DNA of 64,000 bases from Terebella lapidaria (Eukaryota; Annelida; Polychaeta; Terebellida; Terebellidae), in contig OX424569.1 in NCBI GenBank assembly GCA_949152475.1, forward strand, positions 30,487,950 to 30,551,949, written 5' to 3'. The notes beneath the pieces are model-generated. The model did no database searches, had not been told where the DNA came from, and saw nothing but the letters and a program-made list of their open reading frames with translations. A program made the translations under genes and the position numbers. This document shows, in pieces, positions 3,661 to 21,303 of the stretch. How positions within the stretch are numbered: the first letter of the stretch is position 1; every line of letters begins with the position of its first letter.

Positions 3661-4180
3661 CGATAAATATTCCGAGTCATCAAGATCTTCCCCACCTGGG
3701 CCCCCTATGGAAGTCGTCCCCGAGGCCTGACTGGGCTTTACCCGAACAGGGACAAGGAGTTCATGGCGTGAGCTCACCTGTCGTGCTCAGTCTCTGGACA
3801 ACTCCGGCCACAAAACATGTGGCCACAGTACCTATAGTCGAGTCGTGAGCACGAGAGATGACTTAACAGCCACTGTTACAGTATAGTGGATAAGAGGATT
3901 AGAGAGCGAACAAGAATGTGTTTAGAAAGAATCTCCTGCCAGGATCTTTGGGCAAAATCGCCACACTATTTTTTGTACTTTTTTCTGGCCAATTCCCGAT
4001 CGTATGGTGTACGACCGATGGCCGTAGGACGAAAACTCTCCATTATCGCCTGATGTTGAAAAATTGGGGGTCACGATTTTGTTTATTTTTGGCCAGCGAC
4101 GTTTAAGTGCAAGATAATACATATGATATATGAGATAATATATGTTCCATGCAGTACATAGAACGCTGAACGCTTCTGAA
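3661..4180. other. GC-richer insert in module B, unidentified
   Basis: Downstream of CATATTTCGATAAAT the sequence departs from the other module B copies and becomes noticeably richer in G and C (roughly 3680-3860) before returning to AT-rich sequence. I see no terminal repeats, no coding frame of conviction and no microsatellite tail. It could be a degraded SINE or a piece of another element. Confidence 0.4.
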
Positions 4181-5771
4181 CGATACACGATTGTATGAAA
4201 TGATTTATTTATAACTGTTCAATTGATAATGGTTAAATGACATAAATTTGTCTAGCTGAAAACGTACTTTTTTTATGTTGTGTATTAATGTTTGGTACTT
4301 TACAGTATCTTATTTTGAATCGTAATAAATCACTGGCATTGAGTAGGTTTGTGTTTAATGTCTATATTGAATTCATAAATACTTAGACAAAAATTAGTTC
4401 CTGTACAATAAATTTGTGTCCAACTTTTGTAAAGAAATTTGATCCATCGTATGCTTCTCCGATGATGACTCAATATCTCAAGTGAACACGGAATGCCCAC
4501 TAGATGGTCACTGATATGAGAGTCTGAGAAACAGACTTCATGGCGTCCGCTTGCGTAATAATGATGAACTCAGCATGATTTCCAAGGGGTTCCTCTTTGC
4601 CTGGTGATCGATATGCCTGATATATCGATATTTCATCATGAATAACAGCAAAAGTTGATGTCAAATTTGTATAAATTGTGTTCAAAAGCAGAAAGCACAG
4701 ACTGGAAAGAACACCACAGCATCAAACGCAATTAAACGATGCCGAAATGATGAAATTGATGTGTGTTATATCTGTTTGTCTAGCTGTATGACATTGGGTT
4801 TACATGGCATACCAAATCTATGAAATAGTAAATGTTCAAGTAGTTGTAGTAAATGTCGAAATAACAATATAAAATCTGATGTTTCCACACAACGGACCTC
4901 TTTCAGCTGACGATTACGCCCACTTCGCTAGAGAAACGTCATCCACAAATCTCAATAAGCACGACCGAATTGTGGTTGAGATCCTTCCAATTTCACAGGG
5001 CACTGATTTCCTCTCCACAATTGTGGTAGTATTTTATTCAATTTGTGCAATTACTTTTGCTGGCAACAACAAATTTGCTCAAACCCGAGATTTGGCTTTG
5101 GCATTGTACTTCTCGTGCACTGAAAATGTTTTTTGGCTCAACCACTGTGAAGAACACCATTCGATGTAGGAATACACGCTATAAATTCATGGAATTTTGG
5201 ATTCGCCCTTTGCAATGCCTTTATTATTCACATTAAAAAAAAAACAATTCAAAACTTTTTTTCACAGCGTTATATTTTACCCACGTAAGTTCAACCAATG
5301 CCAATTCAAAGATGCCTATCAAAAATGTTTATGTATACCCAAGCACCGTATTAGTTCATATTACGTCTAGATATAAGTAGGCATGGATATTCCATCGATC
5401 CAATCCAAATAGTATACATATATACTGAGGGTATAATGTCAGGCAACAATGTCCGTTACGGTGCTCCGGGAAGGCGAACTTTCCTGTCCAACATGTATTG
5501 AGGTGTTGAGGAATATTTAATATTATTTCACCTATATTCAGGTTACAACAAGAAGCGCTCGCTCTTCTCAAAGATCATCCGATCGTTTGTTACAACAGGG
5601 ACCATTTGGATTCGAGTAATATATCAGACAGAACAAGATGGAAAATACAATTGGGAAAGACATATCTAGCGACTTTTTTGCACTGTCAAAGATAATAACT
5701 CATTTCATGCATCATTCACAATTTATGAATTTGGTGACTCGAAACTCACATTGGTTGCTAAGAAATGATGA
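4181..5771 (+). repeat. Strongly diverged A and B module remnants
   Basis: Parts of this stretch still align to module A (4440-4500, compare 600-660) and module B (4879-5170, compare 1655-1860; 5540-5700, compare 3330-3500), but at much lower identity. The 4879-5169 frame is open here (motifs DDYAHFA, IVV, QTRDLALA), whereas the equivalent stretch in better preserved B copies has in-frame stops. That suggests an ancestral coding sequence decayed independently in each copy. The protein family is not recognised. Confidence 0.5.
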
Positions 5772-6050
5772 TTGTTTATTGCACGAGTCGATATGATGTC
5801 AGATTTTATTAATATTTCTGATAAATACATTTTGAACATTTTCATTCATGGAAATGTTTTATGGTCAAGCCCGCTTTTCGCACAGCGATTCCCAAATTGT
5901 GCCAGATTGACCGACTCCATATCTTTCCCTAAGAGCTTAGCATGGTCAGCCAAAGCTACATTCAGAAACATTTTCAGTGGGAGAGCCATTTTCAACGTGA
6001 CATTGTGCGTTTACAAAAGGGCTATAAGATGCAGCGGTCTACTCGATGAT
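5772..6050 (+). other. Open stretch upstream of module A copy 2
   Basis: An open frame begins at 5772 and runs into module A at 6051, reaching 6215. The corresponding part of copy 1 would lie before the window start, so it cannot be compared. There is no recognisable domain. Confidence 0.3.
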
Positions 6051-7290
6051 ATTGTCACTCCCATGCTCACTGGACACAATTGGTTCACAAGTTGTGTGAT
6101 GTTGACCCTGTGTGGTGCAGAGCTTTTCAATTCCACAGTTCAATGTCTTCACTGTTCAAAATTGCGACTTACTACTCTCATGGCATTTAACTCACGTCAG
6201 CGAACAATATTGTAGTTGCGTTCAGTTTGGTCGTGTTAAATATTGAAATTGGTGGTTTCCGCCCTAAAAAATCCGAGTTACTGGGACAATCAATGAGTAA
6301 GTTTTGAAATAAATGACCATTTCCCTGTTGCATGGTTCTGGGTCTATGTGATGCATCACATAATTCCATGTTATGAAGCAGGATATTGATTCATTGCGGG
6401 ATTGTGTGGCATTGATAAATGTAGTATATGATGAAATTTTATATTGGACGGACTTCTTGAAATTGAATATTGGACGGACTTCATAGAAATAAATTAAAAA
6501 TGAATCAGCCAAGCCATGTGCATTTTATTGCCATGAATGAAGTGAATTTGTATGTACCTGTTCATGTTTATGGTTTGTAAATTCTTTTCTTTAAATATCT
6601 ATGACATGTTTTCGATTCCTGTTCAGAGCAATATGACCCAACGCCTCTCCAATCATGACCCAATATGTTACGTGCCAACTGAATATTCATTTCATGATCG
6701 ATGCTATGAAAGTTGGAGATTTTAAGATGATCTCCCATGGTTTGCCGTCGACGGACAACTGATGGTACTGACACACATGATTCTTCTTTATCACACTTGG
6801 GAGCTGAATTTCCAGGGAATGGGAGCTTGGCATTTTCCGTTGCGGATCAATTTGGATAGATTTATTAAATTAATAATTGGATGTGTTCAGGACCACCCAC
6901 TTTGTATAATACATGTACGGCGATTTTCGTTGTTGTTGTTGTTGTTGTTGACCCCACAAGCGTTAATCAGACCTCCACGGAAAACCCAAGGTGTGTATAC
7001 GCATATGATGGAAGCAATCATCAGGCAAACACTCATGTTTCATCGTGAATCGCATCAAAGGTTTAATCGACTTTGTGAATCACTGTTCAGAAACAGGAAG
7101 CGCCTACCTGATAAAACTAAAGAATACCTACAATATCAAATGTTAACAAGATTGGTCAATGGTTTGATTAATATGTTTGATTCAATGCAGCTGAATGATA
7201 ACGTATTTTGATGTCATACTGTTCCTCTAATGAAGGTAAATGTCCAGGTTTTTCAGGTCTCATCGTGATTTATTATGAATAGATGTAAGT
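6051..7290 (+). repeat. Repeat module A, copy 2
   Basis: Aligns along its whole length to 1-1250. The right end (GAATAGATGTAAG, 7277-7289) corresponds to 1235-1247 of copy 1. There copy 1 continues directly into module B, while here a LINE intervenes and module B resumes at 21445. Confidence 0.85.
6762..7211 (+). pseudogene. Open frame in module A, copy 2 (unidentified)
   Basis: A 149-codon open frame whose last ~130 codons match the 781-1188 frame, with about a dozen mostly amino-acid-changing differences in the best aligned part. It contains a leucine run from a TTG microsatellite and then a basic region. No family is recognised, and it is most likely a relic. Confidence 0.25.
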
Positions 7291-7343
7291 ATTATTATGA
7301 ATAGATGTAAGAATAGATGTAAGCTCTGCACCACACAGGGTCA
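7277..7343 (+). repeat. Complex 5' junction of the LINE
   Basis: The target motif GAATAGATGTAA(G) occurs three times (7277-7289, 7299-7310, 7311-7323), whereas the unfilled site at 1235-1247 has one copy. Positions 7321-7343 are the exact reverse complement of 6103-6125 in the neighbouring module A. Such filler fits template switching while the LINE's 5' end was being attached. Confidence 0.75.
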
Positions 7344-7410
7344 TTGCTCTCTTTTATCTTGCACTGTTCATCGTTTTCCCCTGAAGTCTGGGTGACTTCA
7401 ATGCACCAAA

Positions 7411-7937
7411 ATGGATATAAGACACGTGCTCGTTGGATGGTGTATTCTGGTGTCCATTTCGTCTTTGGTTTCTGCACAAACTTTGCCAGAATGTGACCGT
7501 TTAATACAGTATACAAGGGACGAATTATTCGCCATTAAAGCCAAGCCATGGGCTAATCCGTCACGCAGTGAAAACTCGACCCTACCTAAGGAAATTAGAC
7601 GCAGAAAGCGAGGATCAAGGGCCGGTCTGGGGAGACGGCTACGGTCGCGCAAACACAAGCTATACCTGCCATCAGTTATTATGGGGAACGTTCAATCAAT
7701 TCGGAATAAAACAGATGAATTAGCAGCCAACTGTAGATACCTGCGAGAATTTAGAGACATTTCCTTGATGTCATTTTCTGAGACATGGCTTAGGAATACT
7801 GACCCCGACTCTCATGCTGCCATTGATGGATATAAACTACTTCGTGGGGACAGAGTACTCGAAGATGCGGATAAGAAAGGTGGAGGGGGCGTGTGTGTCT
7901 TCGTTAATGACAAGTGGTGCCATCCGAACAATGCTAG
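7411..7937 (+). pseudogene. LINE ORF, N-terminus and start of APE endonuclease (interrupted)
   Basis: Starts at ATG 7411 with a hydrophobic N-terminal segment (residues ~6-22), then a basic linker (~60-85). The beginning of an apurinic-like endonuclease domain follows, with NVQSIRNK (N motif), SETWL (catalytic Glu motif) and a Gly-rich GGGGVCVFVN strand. The frame runs on past 7937 to a stop at 8091, but everything after codon ~175 is LTR sequence. The domain resumes at 18903. In related LINEs this enzyme nicks target DNA to prime reverse transcription. This copy is dead because of the 11-kb insertion and a later frameshift. Confidence 0.85.
7934..7937. repeat. Target-site duplication, left (CTAG)
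   Basis: CTAG directly before the 5' LTR matches CTAG directly after the 3' LTR. The restored site reads through the LINE endonuclease codons N-N-A-S-I-K in one frame, which confirms the ends. Confidence 0.85.
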
Positions 7938-8237
7938 TGTAGTAGAAACAGCTAGTAGAAACAGCAAGTGCTGCCACCTGGGGAATATAAACGAAATTTA
8001 TCAAGTATTTAGTGCTGCCCCTATCGACTATAACCTCCGTCATCCCCCGTACGGTGCTGCCCCTGTGGGAGGAACACGAGATACAGGGTAGAAGAACGCC
8101 AACCCCCGAGAAGAACGGACCGGATCTCCGCTGCTGCTGATCGTCGCTGTGTCGGAGCCGCGGATTGCCGTTCTTGATTCCTTCTTCTCAACTTGTCACT
8201 GGTATTTATCCAAGTATTATAAACCAGTTATACTATA
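7938..8237 (+). repeat. 5' LTR
   Basis: 300 bp, apparently identical to 18603-18902. Ends are near-inverted (TGTAGTA at the left, TACTATA at the right); the right end is TA where CA is usual. A TATA-like TATAAA lies at 7986-7991 and could drive transcription. I find no AATAAA inside the LTR. Confidence 0.95.
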
Positions 8238-8239
8238 TT

Positions 8240-8253
8240 TGGTGTCAGAAGTG
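8240..8253 (+). other. Primer-binding site, tRNA-Leu type
   Basis: TGGTGTCAGAAGTG begins two bases after the LTR. It is complementary to the 3' end of animal tRNA-Leu including CCA. The next bases (ATTCGA) also match the TΨC-arm complement after skipping GG, extending the interaction. tRNA-Leu priming is known for several Ty3/gypsy lineages. Confidence 0.8.
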
Positions 8254-9376
8254 ATTCGAGCGCCTGTATAGTAATTATCAGTGACACTTAGAAAATATTT
8301 TTGCATGGAAAATTTCCATGTGCTTTCACTGGTAACTTAGTGAAGCGTGACGAAAGGCCACCTAAACGTCCCGTATTGATTTTTTTTCACGGGCTTTGCA
8401 TTGCCGGGCCCTGTAATTGACTGGACAGTAGTCTAAAGTGTATAGCTCGTGTACATAAGGCACGCGCGCCGGATTAGAGAGTTGTATAATTTAGCTTGTC
8501 CTGTCTTCGACATGGGACGGGCTGTCACTGTAAATTTACAGTAACAGTTAGTTTACTCAGAATTTTGCCATTATCAGTTTGTTTCTGTCTCTGTCATAGC
8601 ACAAACTGTACTATAATTAGAAAGTTTTTTTTTTTTCACTTAGCATTGTGCTCAGTGTACATCAGCATATTTGAGTGATTTATAAACTGAACCAATTCTA
8701 GTTTGTAGATTACGTTAGTATAAAAAGTTAAACATTTCTGGTATATTGTAAATTTTTCAAAACAACTTAGTTTTCACTAAATTGTAGTGGATCTAATTTA
8801 ATCTTCAATATTTTGAAGTGTATTTTGAGTCAGATATTTCTGTCCAGAATATAAAATAGATCTACATCTGTTTTTTTTTTTCTTATCTCATATTATACAT
8901 CTAAAAACTATTTCGGCAACTAGTCTATTAACGATAGATTAGTATTAATTTTTCAATTTTATAAATTTTGGAAATAAGTTAATTTTGAAAATAATTTAAA
9001 ATTTTCCTAAATAAAACTTTACATATTTTCATCTTGGGTATTTAGTTTATTTTACCTCATCACTTCCGGGTTTTGACTTTGTCTCAGATATTATCATCTT
9101 AGATAATTAGGGGTAGGAGTAGTGTGTATCTACTATATAATATCTGATATTACATACATTTTCGTGGTACTGCGCATTCGTTATATTGTGGATTTGCAAC
9201 TTCGTGCTTAGTCAGATTCACACTAAAGTGTGAACTTATAATATTATAGTATTCAACTGGTAAAATAATACATTATTTTCAATTTAACAAAATCAGTACG
9301 TCCTGTAATTAGATAAGACATCTAACACAAGTAACTAACACGTCGCTGTGAGCACACTCACGCAAGCAATTTCGAC
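8254..9376 (+). other. Long untranslated leader of the LTR element
   Basis: About 1.1 kb of mostly AT-rich sequence with T-runs (8627, 8873) and several upstream ATGs but no coding frame with conserved features. It should contain the packaging signal and any splice donor for a subgenomic RNA. A weak candidate donor is CTGGTAACTT near 8330, which I cannot confirm. Confidence 0.6.
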
Positions 9377-9859
9377 ATGGTGCTGATTGATTTAAACACC
9401 GCCACACTTGATGAGCTGAAAAGCATAAATGGCATTGGTGATGCTCGGGCCACAGCGATTCTTGGTCTACAATCATCAAGTCCGATAAGGATGCCTCAGT
9501 TGGTAGCCGCCACAAACCTGCCAGCCAGATTTTTCCAAGATCTCATCAGTGATTGCAAGATTGTCGACATCCCTGTTGATGTGGCAACTGATCCATCAAT
9601 TCCTGGTGCACTTGCTCACACCATGGAAGACCCACGGGATGCTGATTTTTCACCACTCCCCGTCCCGCAGTCACAGCACATAGATGCTCGTGATGAGGAA
9701 CTTCGAAGGAAGACGGAAGAAGTCAACTACTTGAACATGATGTTAGAACGTCAACAACAACAGATGGCGTACGATATGGGTATCGCTCTTCAACGCCAAA
9801 AAGATGAAATCAAGTACCAGCTGGAACTTCAAAAAAAAAAGAATGGAAGAGGAGTTTGA
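9377..9859 (+). CDS. gag: Gag N-terminal part: helix-hairpin-helix plus coiled coil
   Basis: 160 codons from ATG 9377, which has a good start context (G at -3 and +4). Residues 4-30 (DLNTATLDELKSINGIG and onward) form a ComEA/PsbU-style helix-hairpin-helix, a nonspecific DNA-binding fold unusual at the start of a Ty3-type Gag. Residues ~105-158 are Glu/Lys/Arg/Gln-rich with a probable coiled coil. The frame ends soon after a run of ten A's (9831-9840). The coiled-coil composition continues without a break in the +1 frame, the next ORF. The two frames are therefore parts of one Gag, linked either by slippage on the A-run or broken by a one-base indel or sequencing error. Confidence 0.8.
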   Translation: MVLIDLNTATLDELKSINGIGDARATAILGLQSSSPIRMPQLVAATNLPARFFQDLISDCKIVDIPVDVATDPSIPGALAHTMEDPRDADFSPLPVPQSQHIDARDEELRRKTEEVNYLNMMLERQQQQMAYDMGIALQRQKDEIKYQLELQKKKNGRGV

Positions 9860-12185
9860 GTATCAGAGGGCACTGAAACTTCGAAGATCTAAAGACTCTT
9901 CAGCCTCTGATGCTTCACATAGGAGTCGTAGAACTGTCCTGAGACAATCTGTCCAACAACACAAAATCCAGCAGCCACCTCCACCACCGCCACAACCTGT
10001 TGACGCTGTCTGCGCGATCCAATCACATCCGAATGTAACCTCAACTGATCAAATTGACGAAATACAGGAGGTCAACACAAAGGAGATTGAGACATCACCT
10101 ACAGGAGTGAAAATTGACAGCAGGAACTCCCAGGAGCGCTTCATAGACCAAATGTTACGCTCAACAGTTTATAATGCAGTTCCTCCAGAGTCCAAATTAC
10201 CTCTCCAACAGAAACTGGGCTCAGATCCACAAAACCTTCAGCAGATACAAACAGTTGTTGCCCAACACGTGACTCAACCTGAACACGGTCCAGTGTTTCA
10301 GGGCGTCAGCGCTCCCCAGCCACCACTGAGTCACAGTAGTCCAAAAGTAACAAGTGATCAATCACCTTGGCATGGTATGAACCAAAAGTTGGAGAAAGTC
10401 TTCAACAAATGGCAACATGAGGGTGGACTTGGTCTCAAGCAGGAAGGGAATATCCAACCATCCACAAATTATCTGCCCAGCTCCAAGCTTGATACTCGTT
10501 CACCAAAGTGTGATCCAGGCTTGAGTTTCAACCAAAGATCTGCTGGTCGCCAAGACGATAAATCGAAACATTTCAATACACGTCACCATGAAGATCTGCT
10601 ATGGTCCGGCCACCAAGATGTGAAACCTAGCCGGTCAACTCGAAGCCGCTCTGTCGCTCGTCATCTGCACAGATTCAGCTCCAGCCCACAGTCGTCTGAC
10701 ACAGAAGCTGAACAAAAGCCGAGAGCTTCAATCAATGCTTCCACCCGTCGAAGAAGATTCAGCACTTCTGAATCTACCTCAGATTCAGAAGGTCATGATA
10801 GCATTCATCATAGGTTGAGACGTGCAACCTCAGACACAGGAAGATCTCGAAAGTCAAGGTCAAGACGGGATGATTATCAGGATCGTCACTACTCAACCTG
10901 GCAACTTCGTCAAGACAGAGGTCGAGATCGTCAAGACAGAGGTCCGCATCGTCAAGATGGAGGTCGGGATCGTCAAGTTCGAGAATGGGATCGTCAGGAT
11001 CGAGATAGGGACCTAGGTCATCAAGATCGTGATAGAGATCGTCGAGATCGCAATGAAGGTCGAGATCATCGAGATCGTCAAGACTGGAATGGAGATCAGG
11101 GCCGAGATCGAGAACGCAGGCACCATCACGGCCAGTACCGACATAATTCCGATGATGAGTACCGTCATGGTCATCACCATGATAGACGTTTCAGACCAGG
11201 AAATCGAGGTCCACCGCCACCAAAGATGTCTACCTTTGAGGGAAAACCCAAAGACTGGGAACCTTTTTTCTTGCAGTTCAAGAACACAGCTCGAATGAAT
11301 GACTGGACACGACCAGAGAAATTGGAAAGACTGTTGACTAGTCTGAGAGGACCAGCCATCAAATTTGTTTACACAAAGCCAGCTGTAATCCGTCGGGACT
11401 ACAAGATGTTGGTGGAAGTGCTAACGGAAAGGTATGGTCAGATAGACCCACCCAAGTCCATACGGAAACAACTCCTTTCCATCCGTCAGGAGGAAAATGA
11501 AACCCTAGAAGATTTTGCAGATAGGGTCCTGACCATGACTTTCGATGGCTACCCTTCTGCTGATGATGACCTGGCACAGTCGATAGCAGTGGACAACTTT
11601 CTGAAAGGTTGTAAGGAGAGAGGCGCTGTATTCATGACCCTGGGAAAAGAGCCACAGACGGTCCATGAAGCCTTGACCAGCCTGAAGCGAACTCTTCACA
11701 ACCAGAAAGTGGTGACACAATCCAAAACTTATTCGACTCGACAAGTGAGCTTCGACTTAGGTTCAATGGGACTCGAAGACAGCCCAAAGGTACAAGCAGT
11801 GGGAAACAGCACTGAAAGTAGAAAAATGGAACAATTAGTCCAACAGTTGTCGTCCGCTATGACTATTGGATTTGACAAAATGAACCAACTACTAACTCGC
11901 CACATGAGATCCCCAAGTCCATCACCAGTTCGGGATTCTCGAAACCGAGAACTGGAGCGTCGAGAGAATACTGCAAGAGACCTTCAACGGCAAGGCTCCA
12001 GATTCAACTCGAGATCACCATCACCAACTAGGAGCTACAATGGTAAAATGGTATGTTTCCATTGCCAACAACCAGGACACTTTGCGAGGGAATGTCCCCA
12101 AAAGCGGGAAAAGTCAACCTCACCGATCCGGTCACCCGATTCCATCACAGGGAATGGAGTTTTAAACTCCAAAGAGCTGAAGTAG
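9804..12185 (+). CDS. gag: Gag main part: Arg-Asp repeats, capsid, CCHC zinc knuckle
   Basis: 793 codons from ATG 9804 to the stop at 12185; the true entry is probably through the A-run at 9831-9840. In order: the rest of the coiled coil (to ~25), a proline run near 60, Ser/Arg-rich segments (~270-350), a striking Arg-Asp dipeptide tract with His-rich end (~366-470), a Ty3-type capsid domain (~475-640, starting MSTFEGKPKDWEPFFLQF), an SP/RS-rich linker, and one knuckle C-X2-C-X4-H-X4-C at 751-764. The Arg-Asp tract resembles RD motifs of RNA-binding proteins, so extra RNA binding is plausible. Its 3' end overlaps pol by 133 bp in a different frame. Confidence 0.9.
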   Translation: MKSSTSWNFKKKRMEEEFEYQRALKLRRSKDSSASDASHRSRRTVLRQSVQQHKIQQPPPPPPQPVDAVCAIQSHPNVTSTDQIDEIQEVNTKEIETSPTGVKIDSRNSQERFIDQMLRSTVYNAVPPESKLPLQQKLGSDPQNLQQIQTVVAQHVTQPEHGPVFQGVSAPQPPLSHSSPKVTSDQSPWHGMNQKLEKVFNKWQHEGGLGLKQEGNIQPSTNYLPSSKLDTRSPKCDPGLSFNQRSAGRQDDKSKHFNTRHHEDLLWSGHQDVKPSRSTRSRSVARHLHRFSSSPQSSDTEAEQKPRASINASTRRRRFSTSESTSDSEGHDSIHHRLRRATSDTGRSRKSRSRRDDYQDRHYSTWQLRQDRGRDRQDRGPHRQDGGRDRQVREWDRQDRDRDLGHQDRDRDRRDRNEGRDHRDRQDWNGDQGRDRERRHHHGQYRHNSDDEYRHGHHHDRRFRPGNRGPPPPKMSTFEGKPKDWEPFFLQFKNTARMNDWTRPEKLERLLTSLRGPAIKFVYTKPAVIRRDYKMLVEVLTERYGQIDPPKSIRKQLLSIRQEENETLEDFADRVLTMTFDGYPSADDDLAQSIAVDNFLKGCKERGAVFMTLGKEPQTVHEALTSLKRTLHNQKVVTQSKTYSTRQVSFDLGSMGLEDSPKVQAVGNSTESRKMEQLVQQLSSAMTIGFDKMNQLLTRHMRSPSPSPVRDSRNRELERRENTARDLQRQGSRFNSRSPSPTRSYNGKMVCFHCQQPGHFARECPQKREKSTSPIRSPDSITGNGVLNSKELK
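9831..9840 (+). other. A10 run joining the two gag frames
   Basis: Ten A's at the point where coding potential passes from the 9377 frame to the 9804 frame. A net +1 change (one A fewer, or slippage) connects them. Homopolymers are sites of polymerase slippage, biological recoding and sequencing error, and the sequence alone cannot separate these. Confidence 0.6.
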
Positions 12186-15100
12186 GAGGCCAACTTTCAG
12201 CTCTACCTCCAAAGTGCCTCACAACAGGACCTGAAGCTCCCATTAAGCTAGAAAATGATGAGGTTATTAATCACATGTCTCATGCTGATACCGTAGGGAT
12301 AACTGTTGCGGCTTCGCCTGCACAAGCCTTCTCTTGTGTCACAAATGATTCTTGTGATTCAGTTGTTGACACCACAGGGACTGTTGCGGCTCCGTCTGCA
12401 CAGGCTCCGCTTGGTGTCACAAATGATGTTTGTGATTTTTCCTCGGGTAACGGTGGATATGCCATTAACAACATCCACGAAGTCACAACGTCAACACCAC
12501 ATTGGACAATGACTGTTCCGGTGATGATAAATGGCGTCAAGTTATCCGCCGTAGTCGACACTGCTGCTGAGATAACTTTGATCAACAACCGTATGGCTCA
12601 ACGCCTACACCTAGATTTGAGGTCTTCAGTCGATTTTCCAATGAAAGGTGCATTCCATGGCTCCGATTCTACTGGACGACTTGTAAAAAGCGTCAGGCTT
12701 CAGCTGGGTTGCCACACCTATCCATGGGATGTAGTAGTCGCTAATATCCATGAAGACATGTTACTTGGTTGCGATTTTTTGAAATCACACTCTGCTCAAA
12801 TAGATTTTCTGAAGAACGTTTTGTCTATCAACAATGACATAATTGTGGCGGAAAGCAAAGTTGGTCCTGGTGGGACCAAAGTCTTGATCCAACGTGTGGT
12901 ACTGAAGCGTGGAATCGTGGTACCGCCCAATAGCATGAAGGTCGCTATAGGTCATCTTCCATCAAAACCTACTGACTCCCTTGGAATCATCGCCATTGAG
13001 CCGATAGGTGAACATCATCAACTTTTGATACCCAGGATGGTTTCTCGATTCCAGCCGGAATTTCCGATTTGCCTTTGTAATAGTACCAACAAGTATATTC
13101 GACTAAAAGTTCGACATCAGATTGGCACGTGTGAAGAGGTGGAGGCCATAGAGGGTGACCAGAGGGTGGATTCTGATTCTGATGCGGCGTCTCCCGATGC
13201 TTCTGAAGACGCAAATCTGCTGTCTCTGCGCCAACCTGAAATGATCTGCCAAATTTCTACCAAGGATGAAGTGTGTGAATCGACAGTGCCTGCACATTTG
13301 CAAAAGTTGTTTATGGACAGCTGCACTGAGCTGGATGAGCCCCAGTCTTCACGAGTTGCAAAACTGCTGACTGAGTACTCAGATGTTTTTTCTAAACATG
13401 ATTTTGATTTAGGAAGATTTTCAGAAATCCAACACCGCATAGACACTGGTGATGCTGCTCCTGTCCGTCAACGGATGCGCCGAACACCAATGGGTTTTGA
13501 GCAGGAGGAAGAACAGTGTGTTAACAAAATGCTAGAAGCTGGGGTGATCAAGCCTTCACAGTCAGAGTGGGCATCCGCTCCAGTGCTGATAAGGAAGAAA
13601 GATGGCAGTGTTCGATACTGCATAGATTATCGCCAGCTAAATGCAAGAACGGTGAAGGACGCTTTTCCTTTACCACTGATTGAACAGTGCTTCGACAGTT
13701 TGAGAGGAACACAATATTTCAGTACTCTGGACCTCTCATCAGGGTACTGGCAAGTTGCTATGCATCCTGATGACCGACACAAAACTGCATTCATCACAAA
13801 ATCGGGTCTCTATGAGCATGTTAGGATGGGATTCGGTCTCTGCAATGCCCCTGCCACGTTTCAACGAATCATCAATCTAATTCTCCGTGGAATGATTTGG
13901 AAGGAGGTGTTGGCATACATCGATGATGTGATCGTGATGGGTAAAACCTTTGAAGATCATATAAAGAATCTTGAAAGAGTATTTCAACGCTTTCGGACCA
14001 GCACCCTGAAACTGAAACCTAGAAAATGTGTCCTCATGAAAACTTCCGTTGAATTTCTAGGCAAGAGGATAGGGCGAGAAGGAATCAGCGTTAGCGACTC
14101 CAAAGTCAAATGTGTGCAATCTTGGTCCCGCCCTCAAAACAAGAAAGATGTGGAGTCTTTCTTAGGCTTTATGAATTATCATCGAGAATTTGTGCCTCAA
14201 TTTGCTCAACTCAGCATTCCTTTGTATGCTCTCACTGGCAAAGGTACCTTCTCCTGGGGACCAGAACAGGAAGAAGCTTTTCAGACACTTAAAACCAAGG
14301 TAGTAGAGGCTACAGTGCTGAGATATCCAGATGATGAAGGACTATTCATCTTAGACACAGACGCTTCTGATGTAGCTGTGGGAGCTGCTCTTTCACAAGT
14401 ACAGAATGGTAAGGAAGTGCCCATTGCCTTTGCCAGCAAGGTCTTGAATGGTCCACGGCGGAAATACTGCACAACAAGGAAGGAACTTTTAGCCGTGGTC
14501 GCTTTCACTCGACACTTCCGTCATTATTTGCTAGGTCGCAAATTCATCGTCCGCACAGATCATCATAGCTTGGTGTGGTTAACTAGATTTCGCCACCCGG
14601 AAGGACAACTCGCCAGATGGTTAGAAGAGGTCAGCCAGTTTGACATGACAATCCAGCATCGAGCTGGGAGCAAACATCAAAATGCTGATGGTTTGTCACG
14701 AATTCCAGATGAGCTAACTCGCTGCGATTGTTATCAAGCCGGACAAGAATTGACGGACCTACCTTGTGGAGGTTGTAGTTATTGTGCCAGAGCACATCGA
14801 CAATGGGCTCGTTTTTCTGTTGAAGTCGATGACGTAATTCCCCTCGCAGTTCGAAGTGTATCAACCGTTGCAACTGTCAATAACGTCTATGGCTGTGACT
14901 TTCAGTGTGTATCTTCTGGGGGGTCTCCCGATCCCAAGGAGGATAGTTCATTGAGTGTTCAGCCTACTACATTGTCCTGGAAAAATTATCGGTATGCGTG
15001 TTCAGGTGGGTCTCCCGATCCTAATGAAGACGCCACACTGAGGATTCGGTCAGTCACAATAGACTCAGAAGAATCGGGGAATGTTACTCTCTCCTCGTAC

Positions 15101-16462
15101 ACCAGCGATGAACTGAGAAAATTTCAGCTAAACGATACAGACATCAAGCCAGTTCTTGTATGGTTGGAGGGGGAGAGTGAGCCAACATCAGCTGAATTAT
15201 TCCTGAAATCACCAGCGACCAAGCGACTATGGACCTGCAAGTCACATCTGCAATGTGTGAATGGAGTGTTGTATTACCGCTGGGAGGGTAATATCTCATC
15301 AAAACTCAAGTTGGTCGTACCGGTCAATCTCAAGGATGAGGTACTCCACCTTTGCCATGATATTAAGTCAGTTGGTCACCTAGGACAAAACAAAACTTTG
15401 GAACGTCTGAAGCGATCATTTTTCTGGCATAACATGACCATTGATTCAAATCTTTATGTGAGAAGCTGTGCAACCTGCAACCAGAACAAGAAATCTTCAC
15501 GTACCCCGAGGTCAGGACTATCAACATTTCATGCTGGCGCTCCAATGGAACGATTGCACATAGATATGATGGGACCGTTCGTCGAGAGTTCCAGCAAGAA
15601 CAAATATATCCTGATGATTGTGGATCAATTCACGAAGTGGGTCGAATGTTTGGCTGTACCGGATCAGTCTGCAGAGATGACGGCATCAACTCTAATTGAC
15701 AATTTCATCACACGGTTTGGGGTTCCTGGCGAAATACATTCTGATCAAGGCAGAAATTTTGATGGGAAACTTTTCAATGCTGTATGTCGTCTCTTGGAAA
15801 TAACTAAGACACGAACCACACCTTATCGACCTAGTTCCAATGGCCAGGTAGAACGCCACAATCGCACAGTGCTGCAGTGCATTCGCTGCTATGTAGGGAG
15901 TAAACAAAAACATTGGGATCGTGATTTACCCTTGATCGCCATGGCCATACGAAGCACCATCAACAGGAGTACCGGATTTACTCCCAACTTCCTGATGTTG
16001 GGTCGAGAGATCTCTATCGCAGAAGAAGTGTTGGGTATGCGCAACATTAACTCTGATAACGATGATAGTATGCCAGACTATGTTCAGAAGCTACTGTTAC
16101 GGATGAGGAAAGCTCATGAAGTAGCTCGAACAACACTACAAAACGAACAACGAGTTCAGAAGAAATACTACGATCTTCGCCAAAGGCATACTGACTTCGA
16201 CAAAGGTGATCTAGTATACAAACTCGACACATCCAGCAAAGTTGGACAAAGCAAGAAGCTCCGACATGTTTATGTCGGACCATATCTGGTGACCGAGGTC
16301 ATATCACCAATTCTGTATAGAATTGAGGATCGCAAGGGAAGTATGTCATTCACCACGACCGCCTCAAGATTTGTCGGGACAGAGCCATTCCCTTGTGGAT
16401 TCGGAAGCTCCGTCACCGACTATTGGAAGAAGAATCGTTCTCAGAGGAAGAGGGTAGTCTAG
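12053..16462 (+). CDS. pol: Pol polyprotein: protease, RT, RNase H, integrase
   Basis: 1,469 codons, entered from gag by a -1 shift within the 12053-12185 overlap; I see no canonical slippery heptamer in the correct phase. Protease: DTAAEI with catalytic Asp ~169 (A replaces the usual G of DTG). RT: D525 in CIDYRQLN, D560 in LDLSSGYWQ, YIDD at 622-625. RNase H: DTDAS with D768. A Cys-rich spacer (~875-900) follows, then the integrase HHCC finger (H1102, H1109, C1139, C1142), the DDE triad D1171, D1231, E1267 with D-X35-E spacing, and a GPY module at 1409-1411. All catalytic residues are present. It copies the RNA, trims the hybrid and inserts the cDNA. The short motif SPD recurs in spacers. 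Confidence 0.95.
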   Translation: MFPLPTTRTLCEGMSPKAGKVNLTDPVTRFHHREWSFKLQRAEVGGQLSALPPKCLTTGPEAPIKLENDEVINHMSHADTVGITVAASPAQAFSCVTNDSCDSVVDTTGTVAAPSAQAPLGVTNDVCDFSSGNGGYAINNIHEVTTSTPHWTMTVPVMINGVKLSAVVDTAAEITLINNRMAQRLHLDLRSSVDFPMKGAFHGSDSTGRLVKSVRLQLGCHTYPWDVVVANIHEDMLLGCDFLKSHSAQIDFLKNVLSINNDIIVAESKVGPGGTKVLIQRVVLKRGIVVPPNSMKVAIGHLPSKPTDSLGIIAIEPIGEHHQLLIPRMVSRFQPEFPICLCNSTNKYIRLKVRHQIGTCEEVEAIEGDQRVDSDSDAASPDASEDANLLSLRQPEMICQISTKDEVCESTVPAHLQKLFMDSCTELDEPQSSRVAKLLTEYSDVFSKHDFDLGRFSEIQHRIDTGDAAPVRQRMRRTPMGFEQEEEQCVNKMLEAGVIKPSQSEWASAPVLIRKKDGSVRYCIDYRQLNARTVKDAFPLPLIEQCFDSLRGTQYFSTLDLSSGYWQVAMHPDDRHKTAFITKSGLYEHVRMGFGLCNAPATFQRIINLILRGMIWKEVLAYIDDVIVMGKTFEDHIKNLERVFQRFRTSTLKLKPRKCVLMKTSVEFLGKRIGREGISVSDSKVKCVQSWSRPQNKKDVESFLGFMNYHREFVPQFAQLSIPLYALTGKGTFSWGPEQEEAFQTLKTKVVEATVLRYPDDEGLFILDTDASDVAVGAALSQVQNGKEVPIAFASKVLNGPRRKYCTTRKELLAVVAFTRHFRHYLLGRKFIVRTDHHSLVWLTRFRHPEGQLARWLEEVSQFDMTIQHRAGSKHQNADGLSRIPDELTRCDCYQAGQELTDLPCGGCSYCARAHRQWARFSVEVDDVIPLAVRSVSTVATVNNVYGCDFQCVSSGGSPDPKEDSSLSVQPTTLSWKNYRYACSGGSPDPNEDATLRIRSVTIDSEESGNVTLSSYTSDELRKFQLNDTDIKPVLVWLEGESEPTSAELFLKSPATKRLWTCKSHLQCVNGVLYYRWEGNISSKLKLVVPVNLKDEVLHLCHDIKSVGHLGQNKTLERLKRSFFWHNMTIDSNLYVRSCATCNQNKKSSRTPRSGLSTFHAGAPMERLHIDMMGPFVESSSKNKYILMIVDQFTKWVECLAVPDQSAEMTASTLIDNFITRFGVPGEIHSDQGRNFDGKLFNAVCRLLEITKTRTTPYRPSSNGQVERHNRTVLQCIRCYVGSKQKHWDRDLPLIAMAIRSTINRSTGFTPNFLMLGREISIAEEVLGMRNINSDNDDSMPDYVQKLLLRMRKAHEVARTTLQNEQRVQKKYYDLRQRHTDFDKGDLVYKLDTSSKVGQSKKLRHVYVGPYLVTEVISPILYRIEDRKGSMSFTTTASRFVGTEPFPCGFGSSVTDYWKKNRSQRKRVV

Positions 16463-16746
16463 ATCTGGGTGACATCTTTAGTGGGTCTCCCGATCTGGAT
16501 GAAGATGTCACACCGGTACAACTACCTGTGGACGAGAGAGATGTTTCAACCCTGAGTAACACCTTTAATGGGTCTCCCGATCCTGAAGTTGTTACACGGG
16601 TACAGCCACCTGCCAGAGAGTATAACCCTGCAAGTGACGCTCACATACAGGAAGGGGATTTAGCCAAACTCTTTAACCAACCTACCTTCACGAGGACAGG
16701 ACGCCAGATTAAACCACCTCGTCACCTACAAGATTATTCAGTGTAA
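16393..16746 (+). CDS. C-terminal tail of Pol in a shifted frame
   Basis: This open stretch has no ATG at all, so it can only be expressed by frameshift from pol (net -1 somewhere in 16393-16462). It is acidic and contains two SPD units encoded by the same GTCTCCCGAT decamer that occurs inside the main pol frame. It ends with TRTGRQIKPPRHLQDYSV, a composition typical of Ty3-type integrase C-termini. The ancestral Pol therefore probably continued to 16746. The break is a recent lesion, an assembly error or a recoding site. Confidence 0.75.
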   Translation: MWIRKLRHRLLEEESFSEEEGSLDLGDIFSGSPDLDEDVTPVQLPVDERDVSTLSNTFNGSPDPEVVTRVQPPAREYNPASDAHIQEGDLAKLFNQPTFTRTGRQIKPPRHLQDYSV

Positions 16747-16818
16747 ACGGCGACTATTTAAGATCCAAAATACTAACCATAGAGTTAAGAATATCCAATT
16801 ATCTAAATATTCCAAAGT

Positions 16819-16830
16819 AAAAGTTTTCAG
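16819..16830 (+). promoter_or_regulatory. Candidate splice acceptor before the TatD ORF
   Basis: AAAAGTTTTCAG sits ten bases before an ATG in strong context (AACATGG, 16841). Branch-like CTAAAT lies at 16803-16808. In env-bearing gypsy elements the third ORF is expressed from a spliced RNA with the acceptor in this position. By analogy this could yield a TatD mRNA. No matching donor is identified with confidence. Confidence 0.45.
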
Positions 16831-16840
16831 AAACAACCAA

Positions 16841-16945
16841 CATGGAAGGCGACTGGCAGGACCAGCTGGACTATGAGGAGGAGATGCCAGAGGAGGGAGT
16901 TTCGACCTCCGTCGGACAAAGTAGAGGAGGACCTCAAGCGTCCTA
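16841..16945 (+). CDS. Upstream ATG frame overlapping the TatD ORF start
   Basis: A 34-residue acidic frame (starting MEGDWQDQLDYEEEM) with the better start context, out of frame with the nuclease and ending in TAG at 16943-16945. It may be the original N-terminus of the nuclease, disconnected by a small indel, or a regulatory upstream ORF. The composition (acidic, then Ser/Thr) would lead naturally into the Glu-rich stretch of the main ORF. Confidence 0.4.
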
Positions 16946-18324
16946 GCACGTCTGAGGAGGCGGGTCCCTCGAAGAAGAAAAAGAAGAAGCCCAAGCGACA
17001 GGAATGTCCCATATGCCAGACCTTGACGCGAAACCGGCTTCGTCGGCATGTAGAGGAGGCCCACCTCCCCTGGTACTATGACCCTCACTTGTGCTGCTGG
17101 ACCTGCGAGAAGAGCTACTTCTGTGTGGGTCTTTTGAAGAAACATCATGGCCCTGACCAGCCTGGGCATGACAGGGAGTCCCTCCTAACCGATGAACACC
17201 TTCAGCGCTGGTGCCGCCTCATGTGTGGGTTTTTGACACATATCGCCTTTCTCTTTGGCAAGACCACGCCAGAGGGACTGCTGGAGATGGTCCAGAAACA
17301 GGGCCTACATCCGAGTCATCTGCCACTGACGGAGCAATATCAACTGCAGTACCGGATGTTCGACAGGTATTACCAAGCTACAGAAGTTGGTGTCTGCCGA
17401 GTGGATCCCCCGAACAGAGCGTCCAGTCTACTCCATTGGACCATCACTACCCAGCTGTTGGCGCGATTGCCTACAGAGGCTAGATCCGACTTACGAACGT
17501 ACATGCAGTCGGGGCCTCGTCAGTGGGGCTTGAGGTTGGAAACTGTCGACGCTCATTGTCATCTCGACAAGATGTTGTCTTCCAGATACCCTGGAGTGGA
17601 TGAATTGGCAGCGGATCATCAGGGACGTGGCCTCAGCTGCTGGAGGATGTTATGCTGTTTGGCATTTCCAAGCCGGTGGCTCCGTCTACCTACCTTGGAG
17701 AAGTCGGACAGTATCCTCTTCCAGATGGGGCTGCACCCCAGAGTTGCTGACCTGCCAGTGTCTGACCAAATGTTTGATGACTTAGTAAGGTTACTGCGCC
17801 ATCCCCGATGTGTTGCGCTAGGAGAAGTCGGCCTGGACTACGGCCACAGTGATCAACCAGCCCGAAGATGTCAAAAACTTTTCCTGGCAAGAATTCTACC
17901 CGTAGCTGTTGAACACAAGAAACCGGTGGTCATCCATGCCCGTCAAGATAGTGACCCCGACGAGGTCTACCAGGATGTGCTGGACATCCTTCAACAGCAT
18001 GTACCAGCTGGACATCTCATCTATTTGCACTGCTTCGCTGGAAGCCTGCGCCAGGTGTCAATGTGGACGAAAGCGTTCCCGAACTGTTATTTTGGGTTTG
18101 GGTCGAAGATCATCGACAACAATTCAGGGGAACTCGCCCAGACTCTGCAGGAGTTGCCGCAAGATCGGATCCTTCTCGAGAGTGATGCCCCCTTCCTACT
18201 TCCCCACCCCTGGGCACTGAGGCCCGTAGTGGATGTGATCGCTCGAGCACGCAATCTAGCGCCAGTCATGGTCTGCGACCTAGCCAAGCAGAATGCCTGC
18301 CGGCTGTTTGGGATAGCTGAGTAA
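16873..18324 (+). CDS. Zinc-finger TatD-family nuclease carried by the retrotransposon
   Basis: 483 codons from ATG 16873. A basic patch (KKKKKKPKR, 34-42) is a likely nuclear localisation signal. Two zinc-finger-like units follow: C45-X2-C48-X10-H59-X4-H64, and C75-X2-C78 with H91/H92. After a linker of ~130 residues comes a TatD domain: VDAHCHLD (H228, H230), GLHP, ALGEVGLDY (E318), VVIHAR (H355), YLHCFAG (H386), LLESDAPFL (D438). All six expected metal ligands are present, so the nuclease is probably active. TatD/TATDN proteins are metal-dependent 3' exonucleases and endonucleases on DNA, with R-loop roles reported for TATDN2. The ORF lies between the pol tail and the PPT, on the element's strand, in the env position. 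It is G/C-richer than flanking repeats. The likely origin is a captured host TATDN-like gene. Its role in the element is unknown. Confidence 0.93.
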   Translation: MRRRCQRREFRPPSDKVEEDLKRPSTSEEAGPSKKKKKKPKRQECPICQTLTRNRLRRHVEEAHLPWYYDPHLCCWTCEKSYFCVGLLKKHHGPDQPGHDRESLLTDEHLQRWCRLMCGFLTHIAFLFGKTTPEGLLEMVQKQGLHPSHLPLTEQYQLQYRMFDRYYQATEVGVCRVDPPNRASSLLHWTITTQLLARLPTEARSDLRTYMQSGPRQWGLRLETVDAHCHLDKMLSSRYPGVDELAADHQGRGLSCWRMLCCLAFPSRWLRLPTLEKSDSILFQMGLHPRVADLPVSDQMFDDLVRLLRHPRCVALGEVGLDYGHSDQPARRCQKLFLARILPVAVEHKKPVVIHARQDSDPDEVYQDVLDILQQHVPAGHLIYLHCFAGSLRQVSMWTKAFPNCYFGFGSKIIDNNSGELAQTLQELPQDRILLESDAPFLLPHPWALRPVVDVIARARNLAPVMVCDLAKQNACRLFGIAE

Positions 18325-18593
18325 CTTAGTGCGTATGGTTCTCTGTCGTTGGTTCTCGTCTCCGTTATGATTATCAATGATGGAGAGCAATCATCTCATA
18401 TTTCATCGCTTTCGGCTGTTGGTCAGTTGTCTCCGTCATGACTACTGACAGCTGGGGGTGAACTCATTGAACTCATTTATCACCCTTGTGAATAGTTGTA
18501 TATACTGTACATATAGCCAAGTTGGGCTCTAGTTTCATTTGGGGAACTTCAACATAATCTTTATGGAATAAACACAACCTAGTTTTTCAAAAC
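18325..18593 (+). other. 3' untranslated region of the LTR element
   Basis: 269 bases between the nuclease stop and the PPT, with no ORF. It includes an AATAAA at 18568, shortly before the PPT. Confidence 0.7.
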
Positions 18594-18602
18594 GGGGAAG
18601 GG
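18594..18602 (+). other. Polypurine tract
   Basis: GGGGAAGGG abuts the 3' LTR. It is the expected RNase H-resistant primer for plus-strand synthesis, and the position fixes the LTR boundary at 18603. Confidence 0.9.
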
Positions 18603-18902
18603 TGTAGTAGAAACAGCTAGTAGAAACAGCAAGTGCTGCCACCTGGGGAATATAAACGAAATTTATCAAGTATTTAGTGCTGCCCCTATCGACTATAACC
18701 TCCGTCATCCCCCGTACGGTGCTGCCCCTGTGGGAGGAACACGAGATACAGGGTAGAAGAACGCCAACCCCCGAGAAGAACGGACCGGATCTCCGCTGCT
18801 GCTGATCGTCGCTGTGTCGGAGCCGCGGATTGCCGTTCTTGATTCCTTCTTCTCAACTTGTCACTGGTATTTATCCAAGTATTATAAACCAGTTATACTA
18901 TA
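18603..18902 (+). repeat. 3' LTR
   Basis: 300 bp, read base by base against 7938-8237 with no difference found. Followed immediately by CTAG (18903-18906), the target duplication, and then the remainder of the LINE endonuclease. Confidence 0.95.
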
Positions 18903-18906
18903 CTAG
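18903..18906. repeat. Target-site duplication, right (CTAG)
   Basis: Matches 7934-7937. The flank resumes the LINE reading frame. Confidence 0.85.
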
Positions 18907-20527
18907 CATTAAAAGCTACTCCTGCACTCAGAATCTCGAACTGTTGTCAGTCAACCTACGGCCGTACTATCTACCTAGGGAGTTTTCTCATGTGATATGC
19001 TGCACGGTGTACGTCCCCAGTCGAACCGTTGCTGCAGCAGCAGCTGTTGAGCTGTGCCAAGCGATACACGACATCGAAACCAGATCTCCTGACGCCTTCA
19101 TTATAGTGAACGGGGACTTTAACCACTGCACTTTGCGCAAGAGCACGGTCCAGTACTACCAGCAAGTGTCGTGTCCGACGCGGGGGGAGGCGACTCTGGA
19201 TAAGCTGTACACGAACGTCAGAGACGCGTACAGAGCCGTTCCCTTGCCCCACCTGGGAGACTCCGACCACAACCTGGTCCTGCTCGAGCCGAAGTACCGC
19301 CCAGTTGTCCAACAGCAGCGACCCAAAACCATCCAGGTCCAGCGCTGGAATGACGACGCATGGATTCAACTACAGGGAGCCCTCGATGACACTAACTGGG
19401 ATATTTTCATAGACAGTGAAAAAAACATTAATGATTTAACGGTGTGTATAGGTGACTATATCAACTTTTGTTCTGAGATAGCTGCTCCACCCAAAGAAAT
19501 TAAGGTGTATGCCAACAACAAGCCATGGATAACTGCAAGGGTAAAGAACATTATCAATCGTAAGAAAAAGGCCTTTGGGGAGGGCAACAGAGAAGCAGTT
19601 AAAACGATACAGAAGGAATTGAAATATGCAATCAAACGAGAAAAAAATTTGTACAGGAATAAGGTTGAATCAAAGTTCTGTAAAAACAACATGAAGCAGG
19701 TGTGGCAAGGAATGAGATTAATGAGTGGTTATGCAAAGATCAGCAATAACACGGGTAATCTACCTCAGTCGTCTTTTGATTATGCTAATGAACTAAACTC
19801 CTTTTATAATAGGTTCGACACCCATGACTTTGCCAGCGAAATTGAGACCATGCATGAACGACTCTCAAATGAACAATCTGGTGAGTCGTTTTTAGAGGTG
19901 ACAGAAAGCCAGGTACGTCAACAATTAGCTAAGCTAAACCCAGTAAAAGCAGCAGGGCCCGATAACCTGTCACCACGTATCCTAAAAATGTGTTCCAGTC
20001 AGTTGGCATATATATTTGCCTACATCTATAACATATGCATAAGCACACAGCAAATTCCAGATATCTGGAAAAAATCGGTCATCATACCTGTACCTAAGCG
20101 TAACATTATCACGTGTAACAATGACTTGCGACCAGTGGCTTTGACATCTGTACCAATGAAAGTATGTGAGCGACTTGTTTTAAACTACACAAAGTCTATT
20201 GTCAGTAATTACTTAGACCCTCACCAGTTTGCTTACTTAAGTAACCGTAGCACGGATGACGCAATTCTATATAAGCTTGATGTGTTGTACTCACATTTGG
20301 AAAACTCCAGACACGGTAATACTGCTAGGGTCATGTATTTTGACTTTTCCTCGGCGTTTAATACCATCCAACCACATGTCCTTTGTGAAAAACTTTTAAG
20401 CATGGAAGTACCACATAGCTTAATACGGTGGATATTGAATTACCTAACAAACCGCACACAGGGTGTCAGAGTATCCATGGAGACACACTCGAATATCATG
20501 GTATCTAATACGGGCTCGCCACAAGGT
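18903..20527 (+). pseudogene. LINE ORF, endonuclease C-terminus and first half of RT
   Basis: Continues the frame of 7411-7937. Endonuclease motifs NGDFN (around 19110) and SDH in LGDSDHNLV (around 19262) complete the catalytic set. A linker rich in Lys and Arg follows, then RT motifs AAGPDNLSPRILK, YFDFSSAFNTI (catalytic Asp near 20342) and NTGSPQG (around 20520). Just after SPQG the frame is lost by a one-base deletion relative to the expected G-T-V-L-A-P, and coding continues in the next feature. The frame upstream of 18903 is LTR and not part of the protein. Confidence 0.9.
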
Positions 20528-21303
20528 ACGTCTTGGCACCGTTCCTATTTACTTTGTATATGGCTGACATCCGTACAACAAACAAAGCATGTCCTATTGT
20601 AAAATTTGTTGACGACACAGCACTCATTGGTTTGATCACAAATGAAAATGACCACTTGTATAAATCAGAAATTGTACGTTTCACAGAATATTGTAAAAAC
20701 AACTTCCTTCACCTGAATGTACAAAAAACCAAAGAGCTAGTAATTGATTTTAGAACAACTAAACGCACGGTACCAGAAAACATTGTCATCGATGGTACAA
20801 CTGTTGAACGAACTACAGAATACAAATATCTCGATATTACATGCAACGATAAACTTAATTGGGCAAGTCATGTGGATAATATCATCAAAAAAATCAACAC
20901 TCGCATGTATTGTCTTAGAAAACTGAACTCGTTTGGTGTTCGTAACACTATATTGCTTTCTTTCTATGACGCCGTCATTTTTAGTGTGTGGAAGTACTGT
21001 ATAACTGGTTGGGCAGGAAACATATATTGTGGGGACCGGGATCGTATTGATCGTCTCATTAGACAGGCACAAAAGGTTATCGGTTTACCTCTGACTTCCT
21101 TCAACGAGGTTTACGATAAATGTGTCCAGGCTAAGTCCTCCACCATCTGGAGTGACGCGTCCCATCCCCTACACAATAGTCTAGTATCGTGTGTGATACC
21201 TCGTAGCGGGAGGGTGAGGTTGCCTGCCATGAGGACTAATCGATATGCCTCTTCATTTATTCCTTGTGTACTCAAGCAACACAACGGTGGATTCCATCGT
21301 TAG
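20528..21303 (+). pseudogene. LINE ORF, second half of RT after a frameshift
   Basis: Begins with LAPFLFTLYMADI, the expected continuation of the SPQG block. It contains KFVDDTALI (catalytic FVDD at 20605-20616), a thumb region with LNVQKTKELVIDF and YLDITCNDKLNW, and ends in TAG at 21301-21303. There is no initiator ATG at the start, so it is a frameshifted continuation, not a separate gene. Together with the LTR insertion this makes the LINE copy inactive. Confidence 0.9.

Follow-up and report, generated by a model that had tools for sequence, protein, structure and literature searches.

A zinc-finger TatD nuclease gene is a selected, clade-wide third gene of a Ty3/gypsy retrotransposon lineage in the annelid Terebella lapidaria

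LTR retrotransposons are thought to need only Gag, protease, reverse transcriptase, RNase H and integrase for their copying, with the host finishing the rest. Additional enzymatic ORFs are nevertheless on record. According to the main text of one paper, the Juno and Vesta elements of bdelloid rotifers encode a DEDDy exonuclease or a GDSL esterase as ORF3 in the place of env, the nuclease being proposed to process RNA 3' ends; these ORFs are family-specific, are shared with Penelope-like elements and, by the authors' analysis, show no significant departure from neutrality (PMC5408684). Orchid Ty3/gypsy elements are described in the main text of another as carrying an ORF for a 2-ODD RNA demethylase that is retained across replication rounds (PMC9289625). 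The CERV protein of the LTR retrotransposon Cer1 is likewise an accessory protein, nuclear and made from a spliced mRNA, but it has exons in common with gag and acts in RNA export, and TatD goes unmentioned in the passages covered (PMC10309623). Here we describe Ty3/gypsy elements of T. lapidaria whose ORF3 encodes a zinc-finger TatD protein. They resemble Juno and Vesta in having an enzymatic ORF3 in the env place, and the orchid elements in retaining an extra enzymatic ORF, but the nuclease fold differs from the former, and both enzyme and host from the latter; the two features common with CERV, spliced mRNA and nuclear location, are predictions only for ORF3. A TatD domain is also found in the host protein TATDN2, as described in the part of PMC12709183 covered. 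Neither PMC5408684 nor PMC9289625 contains the word TatD in its main text, and we found no published TatD-bearing element lineage in the titles and abstracts of the literature on TatD or TATDN2 and elements (mostly open papers, with Repbase outside), where a giant squid paper names TATDN2 in a gene-map legend. Within this literature, an LTR element with an enzymatic ORF3 is already known and TatD as the ORF3 enzyme is new, which agrees with an earlier note on this DNA, made from the sequence alone, that knew of no described lineage built this way.

We analysed 64,000 nt of contig C16 (30487950 to 30551949) from the 761.6-Mb genome of T. lapidaria, assembled in 438 contigs. This whole stretch is hereafter called the window; coordinates without a contig name refer to it, and all stranded features described in it lie on the forward strand. 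A Ty3/gypsy LTR retrotransposon, recognised by its LTRs, primer binding site, polypurine tract, target duplication and pol order, occupies positions 7938 to 18902. Its LTRs are 300 bp each and 100% identical (7938 to 8237 and 18603 to 18902) and are flanked by a CTAG target site duplication read at 7934 to 7937 and 18903 to 18906, just as had been noted earlier. A candidate primer binding site, TGGTGTCAGAAGTGATTC (8240 to 8257), starts with TGG 2 nt past the 5' LTR, and a PPT-like polypurine tract, AAAACGGGGAAGGG (18589 to 18602), abuts the 3' LTR. The gag region (9377 to 12185) contains a CCHC knuckle detected by Pfam, and pol (12047 to 16462; an open frame of 1471 aa) shows protease, reverse transcriptase, RNase H and integrase profiles in Ty3/gypsy order. 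A further frame (16327 to 16746) holds the C-terminal tail of pol, which here is shifted out of the main pol frame and in other copies is unbroken with integrase. Gag is interrupted by a frameshift; a programmed frameshift at the gag A-run is unsupported, because a second copy, L127, is interrupted at a different place in gag. By eye, the gag N-terminus (9377 to 9520) contains a helix-hairpin-helix-like motif, DLNTATLDELKSINGIGDARATAIL.

The element is inserted inside a LINE. The 5' flank (7396 to 7937) contains the beginning of the split LINE ORF, which by eye resembles an endonuclease, and the 3' flank (18903 to 20602) carries the remainder, reverse-transcriptase-like by eye; when the flanks are joined without the element, a single continuous LINE ORF of 745 aa results. 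Upstream of the LINE, near-identical ORF stretches (HFPLRINLDRFIKLIIG...) lie about 6 kb apart at 766 to 1188 and 6726 to 7211.

ORF3 lies between pol and the polypurine tract as a long open frame from 16807 to 18324 (494 aa in open copies). Its start had been placed at 16841, one base before an ATG at 16842. In the window copy this ATG and the remainder of ORF3 are in different frames, and other copies are open straight from its equivalent. With its N-terminus frameshifted, the window copy itself is not supported as a source of the full protein. ORF3 matches the full TatD_DNase profile of Pfam (PF01026; E 1.2e-46, 159.6 bits, the cut-off being 27), the domain being placed at 17545 to 18312 by Pfam, alignment and structure match. 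D237, H239, H241, E329, H366, H397 and D449 are invariant among 17 aligned sequences, so the metal ligands of TatD, which we take to be HxH, E, H, H and D, are all present, and the enzyme appears intact as far as can be judged from sequence. Ahead of this domain are paired C2H2-type zinc fingers (17005 to 17148), seen as a pattern and in the structural model. In the same 17 sequences C56, C59, H70 and H75 of finger 1 are invariant, as are C86 and C89 of finger 2; the histidines of finger 2 are less clear and no Pfam finger profile exceeds its cut-off. The description of ORF3 as lying in the env position is apt for its place after pol; the only Pfam profiles matched by the protein are TatD and amidohydrolase profiles and none is an envelope profile, a difference from env-bearing retrovirus-like elements with their envelope glycoprotein.

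An AlphaFold2 model (pLDDT 86.4) resolves ORF3 into two finger-shaped units, one helical domain and the TatD barrel. The PDB entries that match it best are enzymes of the TatD family, YcfH and TATDN3 among them, with TM 0.85-0.87 by target length for the top four, and among viral predicted structures one, from Yasminevirus, reaches E 0.001. A K/R-rich stretch, seen by eye ahead of the fingers, suggests that the protein may be nuclear. As a function we propose that ORF3 would be an accessory nuclease whose substrates are nucleic acids of the element itself.

We searched the genome with the ORF3 protein, scoring 87 of 353 candidates, so that all totals are lower bounds. The window's family occupies at least 11 genomic places, nine of which have a 501-aa stop-free TatD frame; the two that are not open are the window copy and L102, which lacks the N-terminus. 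In all 8 loci inspected, the window's included, a 3' LTR of 99-100% identity follows TatD, and in 7 of the 8 the end of pol precedes it, the exception being L002, where part of pol is missing. Sequence identity among the copies extends as far as the LTR end. LTRs, CTAG duplication, empty site and copies all bear out the earlier note's view of the ORF as element cargo between pol and the polypurine tract, and rule out a neighbouring host gene. At L102 (C8:7199878-7204176), a 5' LTR and primer binding site are fused to the TatD interior, followed by a 3' LTR, an internal deletion that looks like the product of a reverse-transcription jump; a spliced retrocopy is ruled out, since the junction joins the primer-binding-site region to the TatD interior. 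Elsewhere, a 90-bp exact piece of TatD (G000:C12:33319121-33319210) is located upstream of the C12:33327600 copy at a distance of about 8.5 kb, within or beside the element of that copy.

Among the nine open copies of the window's family, TatD carries 14 nonsynonymous and 30 synonymous differences (N14:S30; p 3e-8, with an expected nonsynonymous fraction of 0.72 and transitions weighted 2.5), and the summed pairwise dN/dS is 0.12. The deficit is seen both in variants common to at least two copies (N2:S14, p 1e-6) and in singletons (N12:S16, p 0.001). In the same six copies, those of eight that are open in the C-terminal part of pol, TatD shows N9:S27 versus N16:S20 for that part of pol. Purifying selection on TatD in the window's family is thus strongly supported. 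In family B, four copies gave N2:S7 (p 0.003), and no departure from neutrality was found between the two copies of family C2 (N9:S5) or the two of family E (N5:S2).

The gene extends far beyond the window's family. The protein search returned at least 88 matches, the window's family included, of which 56 of the 88 listed are stop-free frames of 494-604 aa. Besides the window's family, the matches comprise a few decayed pieces with 68-73% identity and many families with 31-46%. A Pfam TatD search of the genome, in which 150 of 216 candidates were scored, gave at least 152 matches. Families with only 27-49% TatD identity hold ORF3 in the same place. The earlier note had asked whether the ORF recurs between integrase and the 3' end of elements, and it does: a same-strand integrase lies upstream of TatD at 15 of 19 other-family loci. 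L117 and L119 have no integrase within the examined flank, and L118 and L121 have gag and the pol tail, with the rest of pol absent. Two further families, L123 and L124, show gag, pol and TatD within one stretch. Similarity among copies ends at a common point downstream of TatD in families B, C2, E and F. When the window's integrase was the query, with the best 138 of 6630 candidates scored, TatD followed within 5 kb in 74 of the 85 listed matches at 49% identity or above (the other 11 being without TatD among the rows listed), versus 1 of 54 below 49%, that one being a second fragment of a 67% locus. These adjacency counts leave out about 20 weak TatD rows, none of which by eye adjoins an integrase match below 49%, and include one row added from the protein search; four of the 54 lower matches, read directly, are without TatD.

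TatD and integrase have diverged together: across seven families their pairwise identities are correlated (Mantel r 0.90, a value reached in 9 of 5040 permutations). Between families, TatD is the more divergent of the two (27-49% versus 54-76% identity), as antagonists often are. ORF3 might accordingly be read as a counter-defence protein that degrades small RNAs of the host, intermediates of its defence or nucleic acids that are sensed, benefiting the element through protection and not through a step of replication, and its nature as a separate accessory protein would be compatible with that. We regard this as unlikely. Purifying selection on TatD is strong within the window's family, and its faster rate may reflect only weaker constraint, the helical domain being 21-43% and the TatD domain 34-55% identical in eight family pairs.

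Family F includes elements that have lost pol. Its copies, assigned by frame length and score, number at least 15, and among the matches listed 6 have an integrase upstream and 9 do not; this lack was established from the scored list for six of the nine and by direct reading for L118, L121 and L122. L122 is complete, with a pair of 100% identical 266-bp LTRs, a frame of 633 aa that includes gag, only the tail of pol and a TatD frame of 534 aa. It is about 98% identical to L118 and L121 across the stretch compared. The TatD genes of the three show N13:S16 (p 0.002), a count that skips the first 60 codon columns, where L121 is frameshifted. The structure of these three elements and this count argue that a lineage of family F multiplied without pol and retained gag and TatD. 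Retention of TatD in pol-less elements may also be due to chance. L122 itself (1443-8466 of its stretch) is inserted in a tandem satellite with steps of about 26 bp, judged by repeat offsets, and its gag start, DINKASVEELQKLPQIGKQKAREIAEI, resembles that of the window element by eye. On the window's own contig, two F elements (G000:C16:30681153 and C16:30691856) lie 10.7 kb apart, possibly as a tandem with a common LTR.

In an unrooted tree of TatD proteins, eight element families and five outside proteins (P0001-P0004 and P0008) form one clade (98/97), which P0005-P0007 adjoin (80/76); the tree of element-borne versus host TATDN proteins that the earlier note had suggested thus came out in favour of its reading. 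With the root drawn at the midpoint only, a split supported at 82/88 sets the element TatDs, these outside proteins and a TATDN2-like host gene, L126, against the host's TATDN3-like gene and six of the seven bacterial rows; P0032, the remaining row labelled bacterial, groups with P0010 (96/72) on the element side. The presence of L126 in the genome is the one point that would favour a one-off capture, or a host gene caught between LTRs by chance. L126 is intron-split, though, as is expected of a host gene, and the fingers and helical domain of ORF3 are absent from the stretch of it that was read, whereas ORF3 is a single open frame, multicopy and within LTRs. The copies, the families, the adjacency to integrase and the N/S counts together refute one-off capture for the window's family and make this explanation extremely improbable; a functionless capture had been expected to leave other copies without the ORF or with dN/dS near 1. 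Decayed cargo is likewise ruled out by open copies, N/S counts and integrase adjacency.

The finger and TatD combination also occurs in outside proteins, among them P0016 of Dreissena polymorpha (a cluster of 20 sequences), in which finger spacing differs. The pol of P0058 has the top integrase identity among 120 listed (62%), and P0058 and the outside TatD P0011, both with a longest contig of 8639, may lie on one contig. Several other Ty3/gypsy pol relatives (P0130, P0136, P0113, P0146 and P0145) have PF01661, PF00628 or PF07496 in the same protein, the first two of which we take to be macro and PHD domains. A phage or bacterial origin was also considered. In phages, tblastn yielded 31 records, none of which covered 80% of the query, and the five listed records match residues 231-494 only, at 28-31%. 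Among viral contigs three loci match the TatD part and none the finger region, and a contig scan found at least 80 bacterial loci with matches within residues 178-494. These comparisons do not support descent of the element's protein from phages or bacteria.

We also examined how ORF3 might be expressed. In 4 of 8 TatD families a YAG, the ending typical of splice acceptors, directly precedes the first ORF3 ATG, compared to 38 of 1280 ATGs at the same loci (p 4.9e-5), and in the other four an acceptor-type AG ends 2-11 nt ahead of the ATG. In the window, a splice-acceptor-like AAGTTTTCAG (16821 to 16830) lies 11 nt ahead of the ATG and scores poorly in the window's family. With approximate matrices, the share of scored segments of the locus doing as well was 0.67 for family A, the window's, 0.26 for B, 0.18 for C1, 0.09 for C2, 0.013 for E, 0.075 for F, 0.10 for H and 0.031 for I. 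The best donor-like site scored 8.2 in the window element and 11.5, within gag, in L122 by an approximate matrix. By matrix score alone the acceptor signal appears moderate. With four sister elements added, the first ATG directly follows a YAG in 5 of 12 lineages (p 1.5e-5), or 6 of 12 (p 5e-7) if the second ATG of L129 is taken; families share ancestry, and these p-values are indicative only. We consider with moderate confidence that ORF3 may be expressed from a spliced mRNA, as env is.

The sister elements, L128 to L131, are Ty3/gypsy elements of lower identity that have an ORF of their own after pol, without TatD and with two finger-like patterns near its N-terminus. YAG abuts the first ORF3 ATG in L130 and the second in L129, and the acceptor scores correspond to shares of 0.027 for L128, 0.087 for L129, 0.018 for L130 and, at its second ATG, 0.139 for L131. 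The ORF3 of L128 is short (108 aa) and overlapped by a longer frame; those of L129 and L130 end in arginine-rich C-terminal tails. Such elements favour a reading in which ORF3 is at root a finger protein that binds element RNA or regulates its export or splicing, TatD being a later, fine-tuning addition. CERV, in the passages covered a spliced nuclear protein required for genomic RNA export, would be its counterpart (PMC10309623). We think this somewhat unlikely: Pfam finger matches in the sister ORFs are all under cut-off, homology between their fingers and those of the TatD proteins is not supported by significant profile similarity (best E 0.098), and the invariance of the TatD ligands across the 17 sequences argues that catalysis matters. 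Two histories are compatible with these elements: TatD was added to an ancestral finger ORF3, or that ORF3 gave way to a gene that already combined fingers and TatD.

The account that we consider reasonably probable as a whole is that a zinc-finger TatD nuclease was taken up once, long ago, as the third gene of a Ty3/gypsy clade and was retained by selection while the clade gave rise to eight or more families in this genome. Uptake and retention are demonstrated by the copies, the tree and the co-divergence, together with the N/S counts in the window's family. ORF3 would be translated from a spliced subgenomic mRNA with its acceptor at the ORF3 start, like retroviral env; binding of nucleic acid by the fingers would keep the two-metal TatD site in contact with its substrate; and the likeliest role of the protein would be that of an accessory replication nuclease, working on RNA:DNA hybrids or 3' ends of the element itself in the late phase of cDNA synthesis or integration. 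This last role, taken by itself, is a tentative proposal that falls somewhat short of probable, and the specific roles put forward in the earlier note, namely cDNA trimming, hybrid resolution and counter-defence, are tentative as well. Equally tentative as the replication role is a stronger form, in which TatD would be a fixed replication gene of the whole clade, finger-guided, made from spliced mRNA and finishing cDNA or integration intermediates, and in which the need for it would not be fully supplied in trans, so that pol-less derivatives still hold gag and TatD. We know of no earlier retrotransposon that relies on an encoded TatD enzyme for replication, and if the stronger form is true this would be the first.

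Our results demonstrate that TatD is a clade-wide, selected gene of this Ty3/gypsy lineage and not a one-off capture. A dedicated zinc-finger nuclease that co-diverges with integrase points to some step of copying worth encoding, and the clade offers a system for asking which step of an element's life needs a nuclease. The contrast between sister elements with a finger ORF3 and those with fingers and TatD may hint at how third genes change by domain gain. In addition, some multi-copy 'TatD' annotations in invertebrate genomes may be transposon genes.
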